A stretch of 64,000 bases of DNA from Zhongshania marina. GTDB lineage: Bacteria > Pseudomonadota > Gammaproteobacteria > Pseudomonadales > Spongiibacteraceae. The position numbers and the translations under genes were made by a program. The notes beneath the pieces are model-generated. The model saw only the letters and a program-made list of their open reading frames with translations, made no database searches and was not told where the DNA came from. Positions 7,991 through 28,835 of the stretch are shown here, one piece after another. Positions within the stretch are counted from its first letter, which is position 1, and each line of letters starts with the position of its first letter. Where the stretch lies: positions 1-64,000 of the forward strand of contig NZ_PQGG01000031.1 in assembly GCF_002915595.1 (NCBI RefSeq), read 5' to 3'.

Positions 7991-9190
7991 ATGAAACAGC
8001 TCCGCGCCCTCACCCTGATTGGCCCCGGCTTTGTTGTGGCGGCAACCGGATTAGGTGCGGGGGATTTAGTCGCCGCCGCCGTCTCTGGCGCCAGCCTCGG
8101 CAGCTCTTTACTGTGGGCCATTGCCTTTGGCGCACTGATTAAACTCGCCCTTAACGAAGGCCTCGCGCGTTGGCAGCTCGGCAGCGGCACGACTCTGTTA
8201 GCCGGATGGTTGCAGTATTTGCCGCGCTGGATGAATTACTATTTTCTAGTCTATCTATGTATTTGGGCCTTTCTCGTCGGCGCCGCACTAATGGCCGCCT
8301 GCGGCTTGGCGGCTAATGCACTGTTCCCACAACTCTCAATCAATAGCTGGGCGTCGCTGCACTCCCTGCTCGCTATAGCATTAATTCTATTTGGCCGCTA
8401 TTCACTATTTGAACAGGCGATGAAAATACTCATTTTGCTGATGTTTGCCACCGTGATGGCGGCGCTGCTAGCCAGCGACTGGTCGAGTATTGGCCGCGAT
8501 ACAAGGACAAGCCTCAGCGATATCAATCAGCATTTTAATTTAGTGATGGCACTAATTGGCGGGGTCGGCGGCAGCGTTACCTTGCTTTGCTACGGCTATT
8601 GGATGCGAGAAAAAGGCTGGCACAATACTGACTCACTCGGTCTTGCCCGCATTGATCTCAGCGTTGCCTACACAATTACAGCGCTATTCGGCATGGGCAT
8701 TATGATCCTCGCGGCGCAATCTGCACCGGCGTCGGAGTCTGGAACACATATTCTGCTGGCAATGGCCGACCAGCTCGGCGTGCTGCTAAGTCCCATTTTC
8801 AAAGAGCTATTTTTAATTGGCGTGTGGGCTGCGGTGTTCAGCTCTATGCTTGGGGTATGGCAGGGAGTGCCGTATATTTTCACCGATCTAAGCGCCCAGT
8901 GGCGCAAAAATGTCGAGACCGTCGATACACGTAACAGCACGTATCGGCTGGCCCTACTGTATATCGCCATCCCACCCATTGCCCTGCTCTATATGGGCAA
9001 ACCTGTTTGGCTGATTATTTTATATTCCGTCACCGGCGCTTTATTTATGCCGTTTTTAGCGCTCACGCTACTTTACTTAAATAACCGCATCATCATGCCA
9101 GCTTTGCGCTACGGCAAACTCAGCAATGTGGCGATTGTATTGGCACTCTTGGTATTTACGTTTATTGGCGGGCAATATTTTTTATCGTAA
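7991..9190 (+). CDS. Nramp-family divalent metal transporter
   Basis: A 399-residue polytopic protein with about 11 membrane helices. The first helix motif GPGFVVAATGLGAGDLVAA (about residues 10-28) corresponds to the Nramp DPGN region but reads GAGD, so the metal-binding Asp-Asn pair is altered. A Met in the helix 6 MPH motif is not obvious either. It may therefore be one of the Nramp-related proteins with changed substrate. The start at 7991 is chosen because AGGA precedes it; an earlier in-frame start would overlap the divergent kinase gene and add a non-conserved tail. Confidence 0.75.
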   Translation: MKQLRALTLIGPGFVVAATGLGAGDLVAAAVSGASLGSSLLWAIAFGALIKLALNEGLARWQLGSGTTLLAGWLQYLPRWMNYYFLVYLCIWAFLVGAALMAACGLAANALFPQLSINSWASLHSLLAIALILFGRYSLFEQAMKILILLMFATVMAALLASDWSSIGRDTRTSLSDINQHFNLVMALIGGVGGSVTLLCYGYWMREKGWHNTDSLGLARIDLSVAYTITALFGMGIMILAAQSAPASESGTHILLAMADQLGVLLSPIFKELFLIGVWAAVFSSMLGVWQGVPYIFTDLSAQWRKNVETVDTRNSTYRLALLYIAIPPIALLYMGKPVWLIILYSVTGALFMPFLALTLLYLNNRIIMPALRYGKLSNVAIVLALLVFTFIGGQYFLS

Positions 9191-20257: not shown

Positions 20258-20575
20258 CTAGATCTCTGAAAACAGAATCGACCAAGAATTCGCCGTCCCA
20301 AACAGCAAACTTAAGCCCTGCATTGCCGGTTTAGCACACGGGCGCAAATTCACCGCTATTGGCATACGTGCTGCTCGCGGAGAAAAATACACCACTAACT
20401 CGCAGTGCAAACGCCCTTCGGACTCGTGGCGATAATACACCGCACACTCATCAGCTTTTACATCATTGGCCAAAACCGCTTCGGCCTGCGCTTGAATATT
20501 ATCCAAAGCGGGAGCTGCCAAGGTCGCATCACCAAGATTGCAGCAATACCAAGTATTATCCCGCACCGTACTCAT
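20258..20575 (-). CDS. Hypothetical protein coupled to fisR
   Basis: A 105-residue protein whose ATG overlaps the stop of the sigma-54 activator gene by 4 bases (ATGA), so translation is coupled. It contains several Cys (WYCCNLG near the start, [25 protein letters not shown]) and no membrane helix. I do not recognise the family. Because it is fixed to a sulfide-responsive regulator, a role in sensing or modulating it is possible but unproven. Confidence 0.55.
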
Positions 20576-21879
20576 ATGGCGGTGCCAAGTTTTCTATACA
20601 AAGATCGCACACTAATGCCTGCAATTTCCGCCGCCCTAGCTTTATCGCCGTCGCAAAAATCAAGCAACTCATTCAAGTAGCGTAGCTCTTTGGTTTTTAA
20701 ATCTTCCCAATGCTGTTCTTTTTGATTGACTCGCGGACTAATGTCTAACATACAACGCTCTAATACTTTTACGTCAATAATATTAGAATGTGCAAAAATA
20801 ATAGCGCGCTCCAGCACGTTTCTAAGTTCGCGAATATTCCCTGCAAAATAGCATTTTTCTAATAACTTGATCGCGGTCTCAGTTAATCGATACATATCTT
20901 TTTTACTAAATTTTTCGAGTATCGATTTTGCGATTAATGCGATGTCTTCTCCACGCTCTCGCAATGGTGGCAATACTATCGGGAAAGCGTTTATTCGATA
21001 ATATAAATCTTCTCTGAACTCGCCACAGGCCACATTGTTAGACAAATCTTTATGGGTGGCACATATCAATCTAAAGTCTGCCCGCTTAAGCTCTGTGCTA
21101 CCCACCGCTCGATAAGTTCCAGTCTCAATTAAACGCAGCAACTTAACCTGCATACCCAAGGGAACATCACCAATTTCATCTAAAAATAGCGTGCCACCTT
21201 CTGCACTTTCTAACAAGCCGCGCTTATTAGATGTAGCACCAGTAAATGCGCCTTTAACGTGGCCAAATAATTCACTCTCAAATAGGGTTTCAGTCAAACC
21301 CGCGCATTCAACAGTAATCATCGGACGTCCGCTGCGGCTGCTGGCATCATGAATCGCCTTAGCCGCTAATTCTTTTCCAGTACCAGACTCTCCCATCAAT
21401 AATACTGAGGTATCTCTCGCCGCCACCAAATTAATCATTTCAACAAGCTTATTAAAAGCGCGGCTGCGACCCACCATATTTTGAGTGCTCAGCTCGGCAC
21501 TCGCGATGTGAACGGGCTTGAGAATTTCTACAAAATATTTTAACTCGCCATCGTCACCACAAATCGGCAGCATCTCGACATCAACATGTTCTTTTCCCCT
21601 CGGCGTTGTGTGAACATGCAACACGCGCTCCTTTTCTCTGGAGCTTTTGCAGGCGAGCAAGGGGCAACTCTCCCCGGCCTGATCACAGGGCACCTTATAA
21701 CCGTGGGAGACTTGATAACAGCGCGCGTCCTTATCAACGTCGATTTCACCGAACGTTGAACGGTAAAGCTCGTTTGTTGCCAATATTCTGTAATCGGCAG
21801 ACACCAGGATGGCGGGATAATCAAAGCCATCAAGCATCGAAGCAACGTCTTTGTCTGAATCTTTAGCGATTAGCTGCAT
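20572..21879 (-). CDS. fisR: FisR-like sigma-54-dependent sulfide/polysulfide-responsive activator
   Basis: A 435-residue NtrC-type activator. A PAS-like sensor (about 1-125) carries three Cys at residues 54, 65 and 72 ([18 protein letters not shown]), the same 11 and 7 spacing and almost the same numbering as the sensing Cys of Cupriavidus FisR (53, 64, 71), which react with polysulfide. The AAA+ domain follows with Walker A (GESGTGKE), the sigma-54-contact GAFTGA loop (HVKGAFTGA), and Walker B ([10 protein letters not shown]). A Fis-type HTH ends the protein ([17 protein letters not shown]). A TTG 42 bases upstream is in frame, but the ATG at 21879 fits the family. It is divergent from the cydA-pdo-sqr operon, which has a sigma-54 promoter. 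Confidence 0.88.
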
Positions 21880-22028
21880 AGCAGTGTCATTTTTGGCATT
21901 TTGTTTTGCCAATAGTGGCAAGCAATCAATAAATTTACCAGTATTTTAAACCGCACAATACCCGATGACTAAAACATATCTATTCAAAAACAATGACTTA
22001 GGCAATATTAATTTTATGAATTTAACGG

Positions 22029-22044
22029 TGGCACGTGGCTTGCT
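22029..22044 (+). promoter_or_regulatory. Sigma-54 promoter (-24/-12) of the sulfide operon
   Basis: TGGCACGTGGCTTGCT matches the consensus TGGCAC-N5-TTGCW exactly, with GG and GC in the required 10-base spacing. Transcription should start near 22055, about 57 bases before cydA. The upstream AT-rich stretch 21925-22020 is the likely place for FisR-binding sites, though I could not define one. Confidence 0.88.
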
Positions 22045-22111
22045 CTACCGACAGACATAGACGGCAAGCTAGAAAATAGCGCCGCGACAACGGTATTCTG
22101 GGAGACTCAAT

Positions 22112-23464
22112 ATGGATTTCGACCCCTTCGTTTTGGCCCGCATTCAATTCGCGACCAATATCAGCTTTCATATTTTATTTCCCGCCATTTCTATTGGCCT
22201 TGCCTGGATTCTGCTGTTTTTCCGAGTGCGCTTTACCCAAACCGGCGAGCAAGCCTGGGAATACGCCTACCTGTTCTGGGTAAAAATCTTTGCCCTGACC
22301 TTTGCAATGGGTGTGGTATCGGGCATTACCATGAGCTTTCAATTTGGCACCAACTGGCCAGGCTTTATGGAAAAGGCCGGCAATGTCGCTGGCCCACTGC
22401 TAGGCTATGAAGTGCTGAGTGCATTTTTCTTAGAGGCCTCCTTCCTCGGCATCATGCTATTTGGCAAGGACCGCGTGTCTAATCGCATGCATTTAATCAG
22501 CGCTCTCCTTGTCGCCCTTGGCACAACGCTATCTGCCTTCTGGATTCTTAGTCTCAACTCGTGGATGCAAACCCCCACTGGCTACTACCTTGAAAATGGC
22601 GTAGTCATGGTCGATAGCTGGATGGAGGTGATTTTTAACCCCTCCTTCCCCTACCGTTTTTTCCATATGCTCATCGCCTGCCTACTAACCTCAGCCTTTT
22701 TGATCGCGGGTGTTAGCGCGTGGCGAGCGCTGCGCAATGTGGATGGCCCCGCAACATGGAAGGTCATGAAAACCGGTGTGGTCATCGCCGCCGTCCTCGC
22801 CCCAGTGCAAATCTTCATTGGCGACCTTCACGGCTTGAACACCCTAGAACATCAGCCCGCCAAAATAGCGGCCATGGAAGCGGTGTGGGAAACCGAAAAA
22901 GGCGCACCCTTTACCGTGTTTGGGCTGCCCGACGAAGCGAGTAAAAGCAACCGCTACGCCATAGAAGTCCCCTATGCGGCGAGCCTTATTCTCACCCACG
23001 ACCCAATGGGCGAAGTAAAAGGCCTCAACGAATTTGAAGGCGAACATCCACCCGTTGCCATCGTCTTTTGGTCTTTCCGCATCATGTTAGCCGTCGGAGG
23101 ACTCATGTTACTGGTGGCATGGTGGGCAGCATGGCAATTACGGAATAAAAACACCGCGACCAAACCACTGCTGTACTCCCTCGCGGCGATGACTTTCTCA
23201 GGCTGGGTCGCTGTCTTAGCGGGCTGGTATGTCACAGAAATTGGCCGCCAGCCGTGGATAGTCAGCGGCGTATTAAAAGTGCAAGACGTGGTCGCCGAGC
23301 ACAGCAGCGCTACCGTCGGCGGCACCTTGTTTGGCTATATATTGCTCTACGGTTTTTTACTGGCCTCCTATATCGGCGCCCTCCTCAACTTGTCTCGCAA
23401 ACCCGCTGCGTCACTAAGCCTAAGCGCTATTAACGCGCCCCAAACCGTTAACAAAGAGGTTTAA
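22112..23464 (+). CDS. cydA: Cytochrome bd-type ubiquinol oxidase subunit I, short Q-loop (CioA type)
   Basis: A 450-residue inner-membrane subunit holding the haems of a bd oxidase. Visible features are the haem ligands H20 (ISFHILFP) and H185 (RFFHMLIA), the quinol loop starting DLHGLNTLEHQPAKIAAMEAVW (in parts GDLHG, QPAKIAAMEA) and the conserved GRQPWIV. The Q-loop is short, which marks the cyanide-insensitive oxidase group. Such oxidases are less sensitive to sulfide than haem-copper oxidases, so being first in a sulfide-detoxification operon makes sense. The ribosome binding site is GGGAG. Confidence 0.94.
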   Translation: MDFDPFVLARIQFATNISFHILFPAISIGLAWILLFFRVRFTQTGEQAWEYAYLFWVKIFALTFAMGVVSGITMSFQFGTNWPGFMEKAGNVAGPLLGYEVLSAFFLEASFLGIMLFGKDRVSNRMHLISALLVALGTTLSAFWILSLNSWMQTPTGYYLENGVVMVDSWMEVIFNPSFPYRFFHMLIACLLTSAFLIAGVSAWRALRNVDGPATWKVMKTGVVIAAVLAPVQIFIGDLHGLNTLEHQPAKIAAMEAVWETEKGAPFTVFGLPDEASKSNRYAIEVPYAASLILTHDPMGEVKGLNEFEGEHPPVAIVFWSFRIMLAVGGLMLLVAWWAAWQLRNKNTATKPLLYSLAAMTFSGWVAVLAGWYVTEIGRQPWIVSGVLKVQDVVAEHSSATVGGTLFGYILLYGFLLASYIGALLNLSRKPAASLSLSAINAPQTVNKEV

Positions 23465-23467
23465 GCA

Positions 23468-24460
23468 ATGGAATATTGGCTACCAATTATTTACATGGGC
23501 ATTATGGGTCTGGCCTTATTGATCTATGTGATTCTCGACGGCTACGACCTCGGCGTTGGCATGTTAGTACCGCTGGCAGGCGAGGCCGAAAAAGACATGA
23601 TGATCGCCTCTATTGGCCCCTTCTGGGACGCTAATGAAACCTGGATTGTGCTGGGCGTCGGCGTGTTACTGATCGCCTTCCCCACCGCCCACGGCATCAT
23701 TCTCACCAGCCTGTATTTACCAGTCACTATCATGCTGATGGGCTTAATTCTGCGCGGCGTGGCCTTTGATTTACGGGTAAAAGCCGGCGATCACCGGCGC
23801 GGCCTGTGGAACAAAGCTTTTTTTGCCGGCTCCTTAATTAGCTCCTCAGCACAGGGCTGGATGCTCGGCGCCTACATCACCGGCCTTCAAGCCAGCACCA
23901 CCAGCCTATTGTTTTCCGCCCTAATCGCCATGACCTTACCAGCCCTCTACTTGGTTTTAGGCTGCGGTTGGCTGCTAATGAAAACCGACGGTGAACTGCG
24001 CAACAAGGCCATCGGCTGGGCACGCATGGCAATTTGGCCGATGGGGCTAGGGCTGTTTATGGTGTCTATTGCCACCCCGCTGGTAAGCAGCACGATTGCC
24101 GAGAAATGGTTCACCCTGCCCAATGCGCTGTACTTAATGCCCATTCCGATGATTTGCCTTTTTTGCTACGGCCTCATCGTAGCGGCGCTAAACAAACCCA
24201 CCATGCTCGATAAAAACCGTAGCTACTTAATTTATGTCAGCACCGTCGCGATCTGTCTGATGGCAAGCCTAGGATTAGCCTACAGTTTATTCCCCGACAT
24301 TATCATTGGCGGCCTGACTATTTGGGAATCTGCCGCCTCAGTGAAGTCTCTGCAATTTACCTTGGTGGGCGTGGTGATCACCCTGCCGGTAATTTTGTTT
24401 TACACCTATTTTGTCTACCGAATATTTCATGGCAAAGCCACCGCACTGTCTTATGAATAA
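23468..24460 (+). CDS. cydB: Cytochrome bd-type oxidase subunit II
   Basis: A 330-residue subunit with about eight membrane helices, starting 3 bases after cydA. The opening (YWLPIIYMGIMGLALLIYVILDGYDLGVGML) and FWDANETWIVLGVGVLLIAFP are typical of CydB/CioB. It binds no haem but is required for assembly and, with subunit I, oxidises quinol and reduces oxygen to water. The length suits the CioB group. No separate CydX-like small gene is evident after it. Confidence 0.94.
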   Translation: MEYWLPIIYMGIMGLALLIYVILDGYDLGVGMLVPLAGEAEKDMMIASIGPFWDANETWIVLGVGVLLIAFPTAHGIILTSLYLPVTIMLMGLILRGVAFDLRVKAGDHRRGLWNKAFFAGSLISSSAQGWMLGAYITGLQASTTSLLFSALIAMTLPALYLVLGCGWLLMKTDGELRNKAIGWARMAIWPMGLGLFMVSIATPLVSSTIAEKWFTLPNALYLMPIPMICLFCYGLIVAALNKPTMLDKNRSYLIYVSTVAICLMASLGLAYSLFPDIIIGGLTIWESAASVKSLQFTLVGVVITLPVILFYTYFVYRIFHGKATALSYE

Positions 24461-24481
24461 GCTTAAGAAGGAGTTTTAAAA

Positions 24482-25369
24482 ATGACAACATTTAAAATCG
24501 ATATGAACACTAGCCCTGAAGTAATCGCGTTTTTTGACGAACCAACTAACACCTTTACTTATGTGGTAAAAGATCCCGGCTCCAATGCCTGCGCGGTAGT
24601 GGACTCCGTAATGGAGATCGACTACGCCGCAGGCCGGCTAAGCTTAAATGGCGCCGATAAAGTCATTGACTATATACGCAACCAAAACTTAGAGCTGCAA
24701 TGGATAATCGAAACCCATGTTCATGCCGACCACCTCTCCGCAGCGCCCTATATTCAAGAGCAGCTAGGCGGAAAAATTGGCATAGGCGCCGAAATCACCA
24801 CGGTGCAAAACACCTTCGGCAAAATATTTAACGAAGGCACTGAGTTCTGCCGCGACGGCTCCCAGTTCGATCACTTATTTAACGATGGCGACGAATATAT
24901 GGTGGGAGAAATGCGCTGCCACGCCCTGCACACCCCCGGCCATACCCCGGCCTGCATGACCCACATCATGGGCGACGCTGGTTTTGTCGGCGACACGCTG
25001 TTTATGCCCGACGGGGGCAGCGCCCGAGCCGACTTCCCCGGTGGCGACGCCAAAATTTTATATCGCTCTATTCAACGTATCCTGTCCTTACCCGACGAGC
25101 TTCGCCTATTCATGTGCCACGACTACATGCCCAACGGTCGCAACGTTGAATACCAAACTACCGTCAAACAAGAGCGCGAAAACAATATTCACGTACACCA
25201 AGGTGTGAGCGAAAGTGATTTTGTCGCCATGCGCGAAAAGCGCGACGCCACACTGGGGATGCCCAGATTAATCCTGCCCTCGCTGCAGGTAAATATGCGC
25301 GCCGGCCACCTACCCAAAGCTGATACCAACGACGTGGTCTACCTGAAATTGCCACTGAACCTACTCTAA
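24482..25369 (+). CDS. pdo: Persulfide dioxygenase (ETHE1-like, metallo-beta-lactamase fold)
   Basis: A 295-residue iron enzyme that oxidises glutathione persulfide to sulfite and glutathione. The motif ETHVHADHLSAAPYI (H79, H81, D83, H84), HTPGHTPACM and VGDTLFMPDGGSARADFPGGD are diagnostic of the bacterial PDO group rather than of glyoxalase II. CHDYMPNGR gives the last metal His. It follows cydB by 21 bases with a strong AAGGAG. It consumes the product of the SQR encoded next. Confidence 0.93.
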   Translation: MTTFKIDMNTSPEVIAFFDEPTNTFTYVVKDPGSNACAVVDSVMEIDYAAGRLSLNGADKVIDYIRNQNLELQWIIETHVHADHLSAAPYIQEQLGGKIGIGAEITTVQNTFGKIFNEGTEFCRDGSQFDHLFNDGDEYMVGEMRCHALHTPGHTPACMTHIMGDAGFVGDTLFMPDGGSARADFPGGDAKILYRSIQRILSLPDELRLFMCHDYMPNGRNVEYQTTVKQERENNIHVHQGVSESDFVAMREKRDATLGMPRLILPSLQVNMRAGHLPKADTNDVVYLKLPLNLL

Positions 25370-25389
25370 ATCACTGAGGCTATCGGAAA

Positions 25390-27063
25390 ATGACGATCAA
25401 CATTAAAGAATTGCATACCAACTTAAGTGTTTCACAACAATTACAAGCTAGCGATATTGGTGAGCTAGCAAGCCGCGGCGTGCGCACTCTTATTTGCAAC
25501 CGCCCCGACGGTGAGGGCGTAGACCAGCCGCTTTTTTCTGAAATTGAAAAAGCCGCCACTGAGCACGGAATAAAATGTCATTACCTCCCTGTTACCACTG
25601 GGAAAGTCGGCGACGACGAAGCCGCTGATTTTGGCAAATTATTACTAGCGAGTGACGGACCTGTGCACGCTTACTGTCGCAGCGGTATGCGCTCCACCAC
25701 CCTGTGGGCGCTAAGCCAAGCCAAGCAATTGCCACTGGTCGATATTGTTGCCACCGCCAAAGCCGCAGGTTACGACATGAGCGGAGTGGCTGCGCGCATT
25801 GCCGGCGAGCGCGGCGAACTTAAATCCTTAAAAACATACGATGTGGTTATCGTTGGCGGCGGCGCAGCGGGCATTGCAACCGCCGCCAGCCTGCTAGCCA
25901 GAGATAAGACACTATCCATTGCAATCATTGATCCCGCCGACAAACACTATTACCAACCCGGCTGGACCTTAGTTGGCGCAGGTGTTTTTACGCCGGAACA
26001 AACAAAACGCGACATGGCCTCGCTCATTCCCAAAGGTGCCGATTGGATCAAAGCCGCCGTTGCCGCCTTTGACCCCGACAGCAACACCGTTACCCTCGAA
26101 GGCTGCCGGCTTATTAAATACACACGCCTAGTAGTCGCCGCTGGAATAAAACTCAACTGGGACGGAATTGAAGGGCTTAGCGAAACCATTGGCCGCAACG
26201 GTGTCACTTCTAACTACCGCTATGATCTTGCGCCTTACACCTGGGAATTGGTTCGCAATTTAAAACGTGGCCGCGCCTTGTTTACCCAACCTCCCATGCC
26301 GATTAAATGCGCCGGAGCGCCGCAAAAGGCCATGTATCTATCCGGCGATCACTGGTATAAAAACCAAGATATTAACAATATTAATATTGAATTTTACAAT
26401 GCCGGTGCAGTGCTGTTTGGCGTGGCCGACTACGTACCTGCATTAATGGAATATGTAAAAAAATACAAAGCAGAATTAAAATTAAATCACAAATTAGTAC
26501 GTATCGACGGCGACAAAAAAACCGCCTATTTCGAAACCGCCAACGCTGACGGGGGCACCGACATTGTGAGCCGCGAATTCGATATGATTCACGTCTGCCC
26601 ACCGCAAACCGCACCTGATTTTATTCGCAGCAGCCCACTTGTCGACGACGCTGGCTGGGTAGACGTAGACCAGTACACACTGCGCCACAAGCGCTTCAAC
26701 AATATTTGGTCTCTCGGTGATGTCTGCAATGCACCCAATGCAAAAACCGCAGCAGCGGCGCGGGTACAAGCTCCCATCGTGGCCGCAAATATCATTGCCG
26801 ACCGGCAAGGCACGCACAAAATTGCTCACTACAATGGTTACGGCTCCTGCCCTCTTACCGTAGAGCGCGGCAAAATTGTACTCGCAGAATTTGGCTATGG
26901 CGGAAAACTCTTACCTAGCATGCCCAAATGGATAATTAACGGTACCAAGCCCACCCGAGCTGCGTGGTTTTTAAAAGAAAAATTACTACCTCCCATATAC
27001 TGGCAAGGTATGCTCAAGGGCAAAGAATGGTTGGTTAAACCCGTCATGGACGATGATGCCTAG
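25390..27063 (+). CDS. sqr: Sulfide:quinone oxidoreductase fused to an N-terminal Blh (DUF442) domain
   Basis: A 557-residue fusion. Residues 1-112 are a Blh/DUF442 phosphatase-like domain with the CX5R loop YCRSGMRS (C96 to R101). From about 149 a flavoprotein begins with the dinucleotide fold VVIVGGGAAGIATA. The redox Cys pair of type II SQR is present: C307 in PIKCAGAPQK and C487 in YGSCPLTVE. SQR oxidises sulfide to persulfide and reduces ubiquinone, here likely re-oxidised by the bd oxidase encoded in the same operon. Blh-SQR fusions are known in other proteobacteria; the Blh role is thought to be sulfur transfer or polysulfide handling. Confidence 0.93.
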   Translation: MTINIKELHTNLSVSQQLQASDIGELASRGVRTLICNRPDGEGVDQPLFSEIEKAATEHGIKCHYLPVTTGKVGDDEAADFGKLLLASDGPVHAYCRSGMRSTTLWALSQAKQLPLVDIVATAKAAGYDMSGVAARIAGERGELKSLKTYDVVIVGGGAAGIATAASLLARDKTLSIAIIDPADKHYYQPGWTLVGAGVFTPEQTKRDMASLIPKGADWIKAAVAAFDPDSNTVTLEGCRLIKYTRLVVAAGIKLNWDGIEGLSETIGRNGVTSNYRYDLAPYTWELVRNLKRGRALFTQPPMPIKCAGAPQKAMYLSGDHWYKNQDINNINIEFYNAGAVLFGVADYVPALMEYVKKYKAELKLNHKLVRIDGDKKTAYFETANADGGTDIVSREFDMIHVCPPQTAPDFIRSSPLVDDAGWVDVDQYTLRHKRFNNIWSLGDVCNAPNAKTAAAARVQAPIVAANIIADRQGTHKIAHYNGYGSCPLTVERGKIVLAEFGYGGKLLPSMPKWIINGTKPTRAAWFLKEKLLPPIYWQGMLKGKEWLVKPVMDDDA

Positions 27064-27074
27064 GATATAAAATC

Positions 27075-28835
27075 TTGAAAATAGCAGCGATTAAACAATA
27101 CTTCCCCATCTTAAGCTGGGCCGCCAACTATCAGCGCGACACGTTTATAAGCGACCTCTTGGCGGCGGTGATTGTCACCATCATGCTGATTCCGCAGTCC
27201 CTCGCCTACGCCTTGTTAGCGGGCTTACCGCCGGAAATGGGTTTGTATGCAAGCATGCTACCGCTAGTGGCTTACGCTATTTTCGGCACCAGCCGTACCC
27301 TGTCTGTAGGGCCTGTTGCCGTTGCCTCCCTTATGACGGCATCAGCCATCGGCCATATCGCAGCACCGGGCAGTGTCAGCTACATAGAAGCCGCGCTGCT
27401 ATTAGCCTTGCTTTCCGGTATGTTTCTGCTGGGAATGGGCATTTTGCGGATGGGCTTTTTAGCCAATTTTTTATCTCACCCCGTTATTGCCGGCTTTATC
27501 ACCGCGTCGGGAATTATTATCGCCATCAGCCAGCTAAAGCATATATTAGGCATCAGCGCCTCCGGCGAAAATTTATACCACTTATTACAATCTTTAATTT
27601 CAGAAATTAAAAATACAAATTTACACACACTAGCCGTCGGACTACCCGTACTCGCGTTTTTATTTTGGGTCAGGAGTGGTTTAAAACCTCTCTTAATGCG
27701 CGCCGGTCTTAGCGATAAGGCGGCAGGAATGTTGTCAAAAACTGGCCCAGTAATGGGTATTATTGCTACCAGTCTTGCCGCTTACAGCTTTGATCTAGGT
27801 CAGTACGGCGTCAAGCTAGTCGGTGACATTCCAAGCGGTCTACCCAGCTTACAAATCCCAAGATTAGATCACAGTGCCTGGCGCGAACTACTCGTCTCGG
27901 CAATATTTATTTCTGTTATTGGCTTTGTTGAATCCGTTTCGGTGGGCCACACCCTAGCCGCTAAACGGCGTCAAAAAATTACTCCGAACCAAGAGCTTAT
28001 TGGTTTGGGCGCCGCCAATGTGGCTGCCGCATTTTCCGGCGGCTACCCTGTTACCGGCGGTTTTGCGCGCTCTGTCGTCAACTTTGATGCCGGCGCGGTA
28101 ACCCCCGCCGCAGGCATATTCACTGCCGTTGGCATTGGATTGGCCGCACTATTTTTTACGCCATACCTCGCCTATTTGCCCAAGGCAACACTGGCAGCAA
28201 CAATCATTGTCGCAGTGTTATCGCTAGTAGATTTTTCAATTTTGAAAAAGAGCTGGGGCTATGCCCGCAGCGATTTTATTGCTGTTGCTACCACCTTATT
28301 AGTCACTCTACTTGCTGGCGTAGAAAGTGGCGTAGCCTGCGGCGTATTCGCCTCACTTGCCTTGCATTTATATAAAACCTCTACACCACATATGGCCGTA
28401 GTTGGCGAGGTTCCCGGCACTGAACACTACCGCAACGTAAACCGTCACAAGGTGATAACCCATAGCGAGATTCTTTCTTTACGCGTGGATGAAAGTTTAT
28501 ATTTCGCCAACGCCGGATTTATTGAAGATAAAATTTACGAACTCTTAGAAAAAAGCCCAACAGTACGCCACGTTATTTTAATGTGTACAGCGGTAAATGA
28601 GATTGATCTCAGTGCACTAGACGCACTGGAATCTATCAATCATCGCTTAAATGACAGTGGTATTAAGCTGCATTTATCAGAAGTAAAAGGGCCGGTGACG
28701 GATGTACTTTTAAAAACAGATTTTATTAAACATTTAAGCGGCGAAATATTTTTAAGTCACCATCTAGGTGTTCAGAAAATTCTCGCTTTAACGGCAACGC
28801 CAGAGGAGGGCAGCGCAGCCAACTGGAATATATAG
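27075..28835 (+). CDS. SulP-family anion transporter with STAS domain
   Basis: A 586-residue protein with the SulP membrane core (about 1-420; SLAYALLAGLPPEMGLYASMLPLVAYAIFGTSRTLSVGPVAV, in parts) and a C-terminal cytoplasmic STAS domain (about 455-570; ILSLRVDESLYFANAGFIEDKIYELL). It begins with a TTG codon behind AGGA. SulP proteins move sulfate, bicarbonate or other anions. In this operon it may export the sulfite or sulfate formed by persulfide oxidation, or balance anions; this is inference. Confidence 0.92.
   Translation: MKIAAIKQYFPILSWAANYQRDTFISDLLAAVIVTIMLIPQSLAYALLAGLPPEMGLYASMLPLVAYAIFGTSRTLSVGPVAVASLMTASAIGHIAAPGSVSYIEAALLLALLSGMFLLGMGILRMGFLANFLSHPVIAGFITASGIIIAISQLKHILGISASGENLYHLLQSLISEIKNTNLHTLAVGLPVLAFLFWVRSGLKPLLMRAGLSDKAAGMLSKTGPVMGIIATSLAAYSFDLGQYGVKLVGDIPSGLPSLQIPRLDHSAWRELLVSAIFISVIGFVESVSVGHTLAAKRRQKITPNQELIGLGAANVAAAFSGGYPVTGGFARSVVNFDAGAVTPAAGIFTAVGIGLAALFFTPYLAYLPKATLAATIIVAVLSLVDFSILKKSWGYARSDFIAVATTLLVTLLAGVESGVACGVFASLALHLYKTSTPHMAVVGEVPGTEHYRNVNRHKVITHSEILSLRVDESLYFANAGFIEDKIYELLEKSPTVRHVILMCTAVNEIDLSALDALESINHRLNDSGIKLHLSEVKGPVTDVLLKTDFIKHLSGEIFLSHHLGVQKILALTATPEEGSAANWNI

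Follow-up and report, generated by a model that had tools for sequence, protein, structure and literature searches.

Heme-copper oxidases are blocked by sulfide, and detoxification through sulfide:quinone oxidoreductase (SQR) requires a working quinol oxidase. The FisR regulator of Cupriavidus pinatubonensis JMP134 (Li et al. 2017) reportedly targets sqr and pdo, the latter for persulfide dioxygenase (PDO), and no oxidase, and CstR of Staphylococcus aureus is said to be a repressor of another family, with a cst operon that carries no terminal oxidase. A rise of bd oxidase with sulfide is known in several bacteria. In Acinetobacter baumannii, fisR is divergent from pdo1-sqr-tauE-A1S_1711, the induction of pdo-sqr is FisR-dependent, and the bd oxidase genes cydAB are sulfide-induced (PMC7315123); in Escherichia coli, the mechanism of the bd oxidase rise with sulfide was unexplained before the YgaV data (PMC9774250); and the Pseudomonas aeruginosa CIO is unaffected by sulfide (PMC10968556). 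Through these reports and that on Chromobacterium violaceum, the notion of a cooperation between SQR and bd oxidase is already in print. Here, we analysed the first 64,000 nucleotides of contig NZ_PQGG01000031.1 of Zhongshania marina (the window), in which positions 20572-28835 very probably form a FisR-controlled sulfide-response operon with the cell's only bd oxidase as promoter-proximal cargo.

The window lies within contig C25 of a 4.13 Mb genome in 46 contigs, and by CydA its closest named relatives are Zhongshania and Spongiibacter (L, G, C and f numbers are our handles for loci, genomes, contigs and families). At 20572-28835, fisR is divergent from a co-directed cydA-cydB-pdo-blh/sqr-sulP series, with every gene at the position given by the initial annotation. 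The co-directed genes are separated by 3, 21, 20 and 11 nt, in agreement with the earlier statement that they run without breaks behind the promoter. The features are as follows.

20572..21879, minus strand: fisR, sigma-54-dependent activator with a three-Cys sensor domain (Pfam Sigma54_activat, AAA_lid_14, HTH_8)
21884..21899, unstranded: putative distal FisR-type enhancer dyad GTGTCATTTTTGGCAT, 2 mismatches, 145 bp upstream of the sigma-54 site
21906..21921, unstranded: putative proximal enhancer dyad, a TTGYCA-N4-TGRCAA palindrome without mismatch, 123 bp ahead of the sigma-54 site
22029..22044, plus strand: sigma-54 promoter element TGGCACGTGGCTTGCT, exact consensus match
22112..23464, plus strand: cydA, bd oxidase subunit I, short Q-loop (PF01654, Cyt_bd_oxida_I, E 1.6e-160)
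23468..24460, plus strand: cydB, bd oxidase subunit II (PF02322, Cyt_bd_oxida_II, E 2e-77)
24482..25369, plus strand: pdo, persulfide dioxygenase of the metallo-beta-lactamase fold (closest solved chains 9g8t and 4ysk)
25390..27063, plus strand: blh-sqr fusion, N-terminal Blh sulfurtransferase-like domain (PF04273 BLH_phosphatase and TIGR01244) and type-II-like sulfide:quinone oxidoreductase
27075..28835, plus strand: sulP, SulP-family anion transporter with STAS domain (TIGR00815 above cut-off, PF00916 Sulfate_transp, PF01740)

The sequence basis of the operon comprises the content, order and tightness of these genes, the promoter and dyads with their conserved geometry, the FisR cysteines, and the repeated association of FisR with two types of bd oxidase. 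The element TGGCACGTGGCTTGCT is the sole exact sigma-54 consensus match in the window versus 0.11 expected, so the textbook sigma-54 promoter first noticed opposite fisR is there; by this expectation and the dyad-promoter spacing statistics below, a chance origin of the site was rejected. The dyad TTGYCA-N4-TGRCAA occurs in the upstream regions, often in two copies ∼22 bp apart, and the dyads are putative enhancers that FisR would bind. The genome holds 10 perfect dyads and 18 TGGCAY-N5-TTGCW sites, and among perfect dyads, to which this statement is limited, the proximal one is the only one within 300 bp of any of those 18 sites; with 1 mismatch allowed, 97 forward matches were found versus 24 for the reversed-pattern control. 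One RpoN match is encoded in the genome.

The start of fisR is probably the ATG at 21879 (435 aa) rather than the TTG at 21921 with which the mechanical open reading frame (ORF) begins, because the dyads occupy 21884-21921 and close relatives share that Met codon. Numbered from this ATG, the sensor domain carries C-x10-C-x6-C as C54, C65 and C72, the spacing that had been read at first and that we take to be the published C53/C64/C71 of Cupriavidus FisR; an AAA+ sigma-54 interaction domain with GAFTGA and a Fis-type helix-turn-helix (HTH_8) follow. As in published relatives, activation would be by sulfide-derived persulfide or polysulfide. A 105-aa ORF on the minus strand (20258-20575), with no family match, overlaps the fisR end and also stands beside fisR in L014, at 64% identity.

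Aligned to E. coli bd-I CydA (6rko), the window CydA skips ∼66 residues in the Q-loop, as expected from its earlier description as a short-Q-loop type, and keeps the H, E, M and GRQPW positions, whose roles we take to be those of heme ligands and of the conserved GRQPW motif. It is the only PF01654 match and thus the only bd oxidase found in the genome, which elsewhere encodes three heme-copper oxidases (aa3-, bo3- and cbb3-like). By analogy with published relatives such as the P. aeruginosa CIO, respiration through the window CydAB is predicted to be sulfide-resistant. The PDO matches chain 9g8t (E 5e-116) and next 4ysk, whose records name merely metallo- or beta-lactamase proteins and which we take to be the P. 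aeruginosa and P. putida persulfide dioxygenases, and contains the metal-ligand motifs THxHADH and HTPGHTP. The SQR half matches human SQOR best (E 2e-92), with both redox-cysteine motifs, CAGAPQK and SCPL, aligned; the cysteine roles and the name 'type II' are our assumption. Of the Blh-SQR first annotated, the genes are present, with the correction that SQR is fused to the Blh domain. Family membership is what the sequence gives for SulP, and export of sulfite or sulfate by it would be a guess. On the 3′ side of sulP no special structure was found (z −0.24), and the CNNM gene there was considered as an operon member and left out, its position varying among relatives: among the loci listed, it stands behind sulP in L014 and L015, and upstream of cydA in L016/L124.

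A promoter of its own for cydAB, constitutive or oxygen-responsive and added to that of FisR, would leave sulfide control with little to contribute for the only bd oxidase, and we hold this to be possible, if doubtful. Being the only one found, the oxidase may be needed at low oxygen too, and weak sigma-70-like sites are frequent in the region (19 versus 13.5 expected). Against this, sigma-54 promoters are normally silent without their activator, the three heme-copper oxidases, cbb3 type included, could serve low oxygen, and no Fnr/Anr-type box (TTGATN4ATCAA, up to 2 mismatches) was found between fisR and cydA (21880-22111), for want of which Fnr/Anr control from this intergenic region was rejected.

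A comparison of gene order in relatives had been proposed at the outset, and within the genus (the window genome plus 17 others) the order proved to be kept. This CydA was present in 17 of the 18 genomes, pdo followed, co-directed and no more than 3 kb from cydB, in 17/17, and fisR faced cydA in 16/17. Some genomes deviate: in G012 the series is interrupted by an opposite-strand gene; G001 lacks the dyads and the sqr half, and its genome gives no FisR match; the genomes of G002 and G011 give no match to Blh-SQR, yet keep cydAB-pdo-sulP under the promoter; and G007, the one genome without this cydAB, has fisR 4 kb from pdo with other genes intervening. Separately, a CsoR-family gene (PF02583) stands between cydB and pdo in three genus relatives, L127:6512-6847 (G012), L129:6592-6873 (G004) and L130:7275-7604 (G015); it has two cysteines, presumably resembling those of the persulfide sensor CstR, and these operons may therefore carry a second sulfur sensor.

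The 104 distinct cydA loci were divided into 25 linked ones (pdo or sqr following), 2 rear ones (pdo or sqr before) and 77 unlinked ones. L101 was moved from 'none' to 'front', as its label 'none' was due to the short locus alone; L042 was merged with L038 as a duplicate; and L056, where the contig ends after fisR, a peroxiredoxin-like gene and cydA, was counted as 'none'. A sigma-54 site was found upstream of cydA in 23/25 linked versus 4/77 unlinked loci and in neither rear locus, with a Fisher p of ∼1e-16 that is merely indicative because the rows are related to one another. A dyad (≤1 mismatch) with the promoter 105-148 bp on was present in 18/25 linked versus 0/77 unlinked loci, or 21/25 versus 1/77 with ≤2 mismatches, and the dyad-plus-promoter geometry arose in 0/5000 shuffles. 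The proximal dyad precedes the sigma-54 site by 120-123 bp in 18/25 linked loci, L022 included, and the distal one lies at 142-145 bp in many linked relatives; this spacing is constant while the promoter-to-ATG distance varies from 34 to 217 nt. Even in L029, whose fisR is relocated to the far end, dyads and promoter are still upstream of cydA.

The same arrangement serves a second pdo-blh-sqr-sulP copy without cydAB, L141 (G005:C63), which has no fisR in its stretch and a sigma-54 site with two dyads at 121 and 142 bp, each carrying 1 mismatch; the single FisR match of G005 lies at the cydAB locus, which suggests that FisR acts in trans on L141. Genome-wide, the strict dyad-plus-promoter pattern was matched in 12 of the 390 genomes of the order and never by the reversed control; 11 of the 12 matches lie between fisR and cydA by coordinates, and for the twelfth (G302, L148) the available stretch contains none of these genes. 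Of the unlinked cydA, considered as FisR targets in trans, 73/77 lack a sigma-54 site, and L032 and L040, with such a site and no good dyad, may or may not be targets; in 14 unlinked loci inspected by eye, no sulfide genes and no common neighbour were seen. On the CydA tree, all 27 linked copies fall into one supported clade of 47 rows, together with 20 others, so that much of the conservation in the 104-locus set is shared ancestry. As an observation by eye from the sequence, the peroxiredoxin-like gene between fisR and cydA in L056, from a Pseudohongiella metagenome-assembled genome, spans 8000-9001.

Selection by CydA is avoided when the FisR sensor domain is the search query (E 1e-25 or better). 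It matched in 20/293 genomes of the class, 68/390 of the order and 30/398 of the phylum, with the window genome counted each time. All 108 listed matches outside the genus plus G007 (L231) gave 109 neighbourhoods, mostly of 8 kb on each side, in which absences are lower bounds because a number of loci run into a contig end after a few kb. C-x10-C-x6-C was present in 109/109 of these other FisR. Outside the genus, cydAB was found in 39/108 neighbourhoods, or 38 without L216, which was counted as bd-linked via a CydA truncated at the edge, at a distance of 7.5 kb. Short-Q-loop copies divergent from fisR numbered 15, with 10 in front of pdo-sqr and 5 behind sulP; long-Q-loop copies divergent from fisR numbered 19, with SQR closely following in two (L167 and L178); and 3 long- and 2 short-Q-loop copies were placed otherwise. 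The Q-loop measure, in the rows readable, was 61-63 in linked short-Q-loop relatives versus 129 in the long-Q-loop type, and for three long-Q-loop examples the best NCBIfam match was the bd-I model NF011677, under its curated cut-off. Long-Q-loop bd oxidases thus pair with FisR about as often as short ones (22 versus 17 in the sample), and the initial label 'short Q-loop, sulfide-tolerant type' was too narrow.

A gene for heme-copper oxidase subunit I (COX1) was found at 0/109 FisR loci by tblastn (≥80 bits) with three queries from the window's own genome (aa3-, bo3- and cbb3-like), which is the sole control for the proximity of bd oxidases to FisR. The bd-linked loci belong to 12 families (f37, f38, f40, f41, f44, f72, f163, f167, f171, f185, f190 and f191), making 13 once f1, that of the window, is added. 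A FisR tree of 105 rows, built by a quick method and omitting the five short rows L178, L211, L230, L250 and L263, requires 15 changes of the bd label, gains and losses together, at least 9 of which are forced by starred branches. In the divergent bd regions, a sigma-54 site (score ≥14) was found upstream of 15/17 short- and 12/18 long-Q-loop copies, where shuffles expect 0.26 and 0.34, compared with 29/41 loci of the class without bd oxidase and 8/26 outside the class; a dyad in geometry was present in 12/17 short-Q-loop loci, 19/41 of the class without bd oxidase and 5/26 outside the class (≤0.03 expected each). Since cydAB is found in 39/108 loci, in varied types and positions and with at least 9 label changes, and was not seen in the rest, bd oxidase is a recurrent, not a universal, partner of FisR.

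Several neighbourhoods hold other combinations. In L165, L213, L214, L217, L219, L264 and others, mainly of families f37, f38, f171 and f185, fisR and long-Q-loop cydAB diverge, and neither pdo nor sqr has a match in view; in L264 (451-6917), FisR faces a small gene with no family match, after which come long-Q-loop cydAB and genes closest to cydD and cydC (below cut-offs), i.e. the oxidase together with assembly exporter genes. Next to FisR, SQR or bd oxidase, Tll0287-like proteins (PF11845) turn up repeatedly (L161:2427-3050, L213:12074-12625 and L024:3426-4406), the one of L024 with a cytochrome c-like part and between cydB and pdo, and a 1-Cys peroxiredoxin follows cydB in L200 (541-1197). 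Outside the class, L232, L233 and L238 make up a FisR clade of their own that keeps the three cysteines; the FisR of L233 faces a molybdopterin oxidoreductase whose nearest NCBIfam model is thiosulfate reductase PhsA (below cut-off), and the ORFs of L232 and L238 look similar by eye.

An operon answering another poison (cyanide, nitric oxide or carbon monoxide) or endogenous persulfide from cysteine breakdown, with sulfide as one inducer among several, is unlikely in our estimate. Short-Q-loop bd oxidases do also counter cyanide and nitric oxide (PMC11837568, PMC10968556), and the Chromobacterium cioRAB was induced by cyanide alone among five compounds tested (PMC11837568). On the other hand, the co-directed pdo and Blh-SQR are sulfur-specific, and the regulator has the FisR cysteine motif, as do all 109 of the other FisR loci examined. 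Still less probable is that the genes merely travel as a block by descent or transfer, with oxidase and sulfide oxidation functionally uncoupled: the single clade of linked CydA copies favours this, against which stand the three positions of cydAB relative to pdo-sqr, the two CydA classes, the forced label changes on the FisR tree, the lack of COX1 at the loci, the conserved enhancer spacing, and the retention of cydAB-pdo-sulP under the promoter in G002 and G011 where SQR has no match in the genome.

Weighing against a FisR-driven sulfide operon with bd oxidase as cargo are the following points. The case is built from sequence, with expression inferred. A sigma-54-like pattern also arises by chance in the genome (18 sites; 7 for the reversed control), the region ahead of cydA showed no dyad in L016/L124, L024 and L033, and the rear cydAB copies might have their own promoter. 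The divergent long-Q-loop loci, apart from their 12/18 strong sigma-54 sites, show a dyad in geometry in 5/18, and the three long-Q-loop loci of other arrangement have neither sigma-54 site (0/3) nor dyad (0/3). Of the 81 FisR loci that belong to the class and not to the genus, 42 have no bd oxidase in view; beyond the class, the number with one is 0/27. In a family-level sample of the order, a strong SQR match occurs in 12 non-genus genomes, none with a linked cydA; 3 of the 12 have a FisR match. In addition, the A. baumannii account, in its accessible part, does not report FisR dependence of cydAB (PMC7315123).

Taken together, promoter geometry, gene order and the recurrence of FisR with cydAB in other families and bd types support the claim that the FisR/sigma-54 promoter drives cydAB with pdo-sqr-sulP, and the locus is a real, conserved FisR operon with the bd oxidase as its first cargo, raised above the routine by the pairing across families and oxidase types. 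In the working that we propose, sulfide, or persulfide or polysulfide derived from it, would modify the FisR cysteines, and FisR on the two dyads ∼120-145 bp upstream would activate RNA polymerase-sigma54 at 22029-22044, giving a single transcript for CydAB, PDO, Blh-SQR and SulP. CydAB would then pass quinol electrons, SQR-derived ones included, to O2 while the aa3-, bo3- and cbb3-like oxidases are poisoned, PDO would convert persulfide to sulfite, and SulP may move a sulfur oxyanion whose identity and direction are a guess. Expression as one transcript and its dependence on sulfide are what the arrangement of the genes suggests, and the reactions of SQR and PDO, like the sensing chemistry, are predicted from published relatives. 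A complete sulfide-induced route from sulfide to sulfite with a resistant oxidase would fit the protein families and the published related bd oxidases.

One promoter for detoxification and a resistant oxidase would be a direct, testable answer to the conflict between sulfide and respiration. We moderately favour the wider view that protecting respiration is a core job of FisR, and that gammaproteobacterial FisR repeatedly captured whatever bd oxidase was available, short- or long-Q-loop, sometimes as the sole recognised gene behind its promoter. If so, direct FisR control could account for a sulfide induction of bd oxidase that has long lacked an explanation in some bacteria, and such control is predicted here for at least 13 families, the window's own included.

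No description of cydAB inside a FisR operon was found in a literature search covering mainly titles and abstracts and leaving out most subscription papers, and PMC12345210 makes no mention of FisR, cydA or operon; within the literature searched, a single FisR operon uniting cydAB with sulfide oxidation, and the recurrence of FisR-bd pairs, appear to be new. For C. necator cydA2B2 a weak native promoter is described, with 'Fis family' and 'sulfide' not mentioned in the text available, so it is a lead only (PMC10164946). With C. violaceum cioRAB (short Q-loop) and the P. aeruginosa CIO, the locus shares a bd oxidase protecting against sulfide (PMC11837568, PMC10968556), whereas cioRAB is cyanide-induced and controlled by a MarR/GbsR-type CioR and quorum sensing, and neither FisR nor a sqr-pdo linkage is described in the accessible part of that report (PMC11837568). 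E. coli YgaV is likewise a sulfide-responsive regulator affecting bd oxidase transcripts, but is of the SqrR/BigR type, its mutant shows higher cydAB read counts, and an operon shared with sulfide oxidation genes is not described in the sections available (PMC9774250). The S. aureus cst/CstR system shares a persulfide sensor with sqr, persulfide dioxygenase and an exporter in one operon (PMC7315123), and the C. pinatubonensis JMP134 FisR shares the sigma-54 activator of sulfide-oxidising genes and the three sensing cysteines (cited in PMC9774590). Closest is the A. baumannii FisR regulon, with its divergent FisR, predicted sigma-54 promoter, pdo followed by sqr, a putative anion exporter, and a sulfide-induced cydAB depicted as connected with SQR via the quinone pool; however, A. 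baumannii has TauE where the window has SulP and an SQR fused to Blh, and its cydAB (A1S_1433-1434) lies elsewhere in the genome, whereas the window cydAB is the first cargo behind the FisR promoter (PMC7315123).

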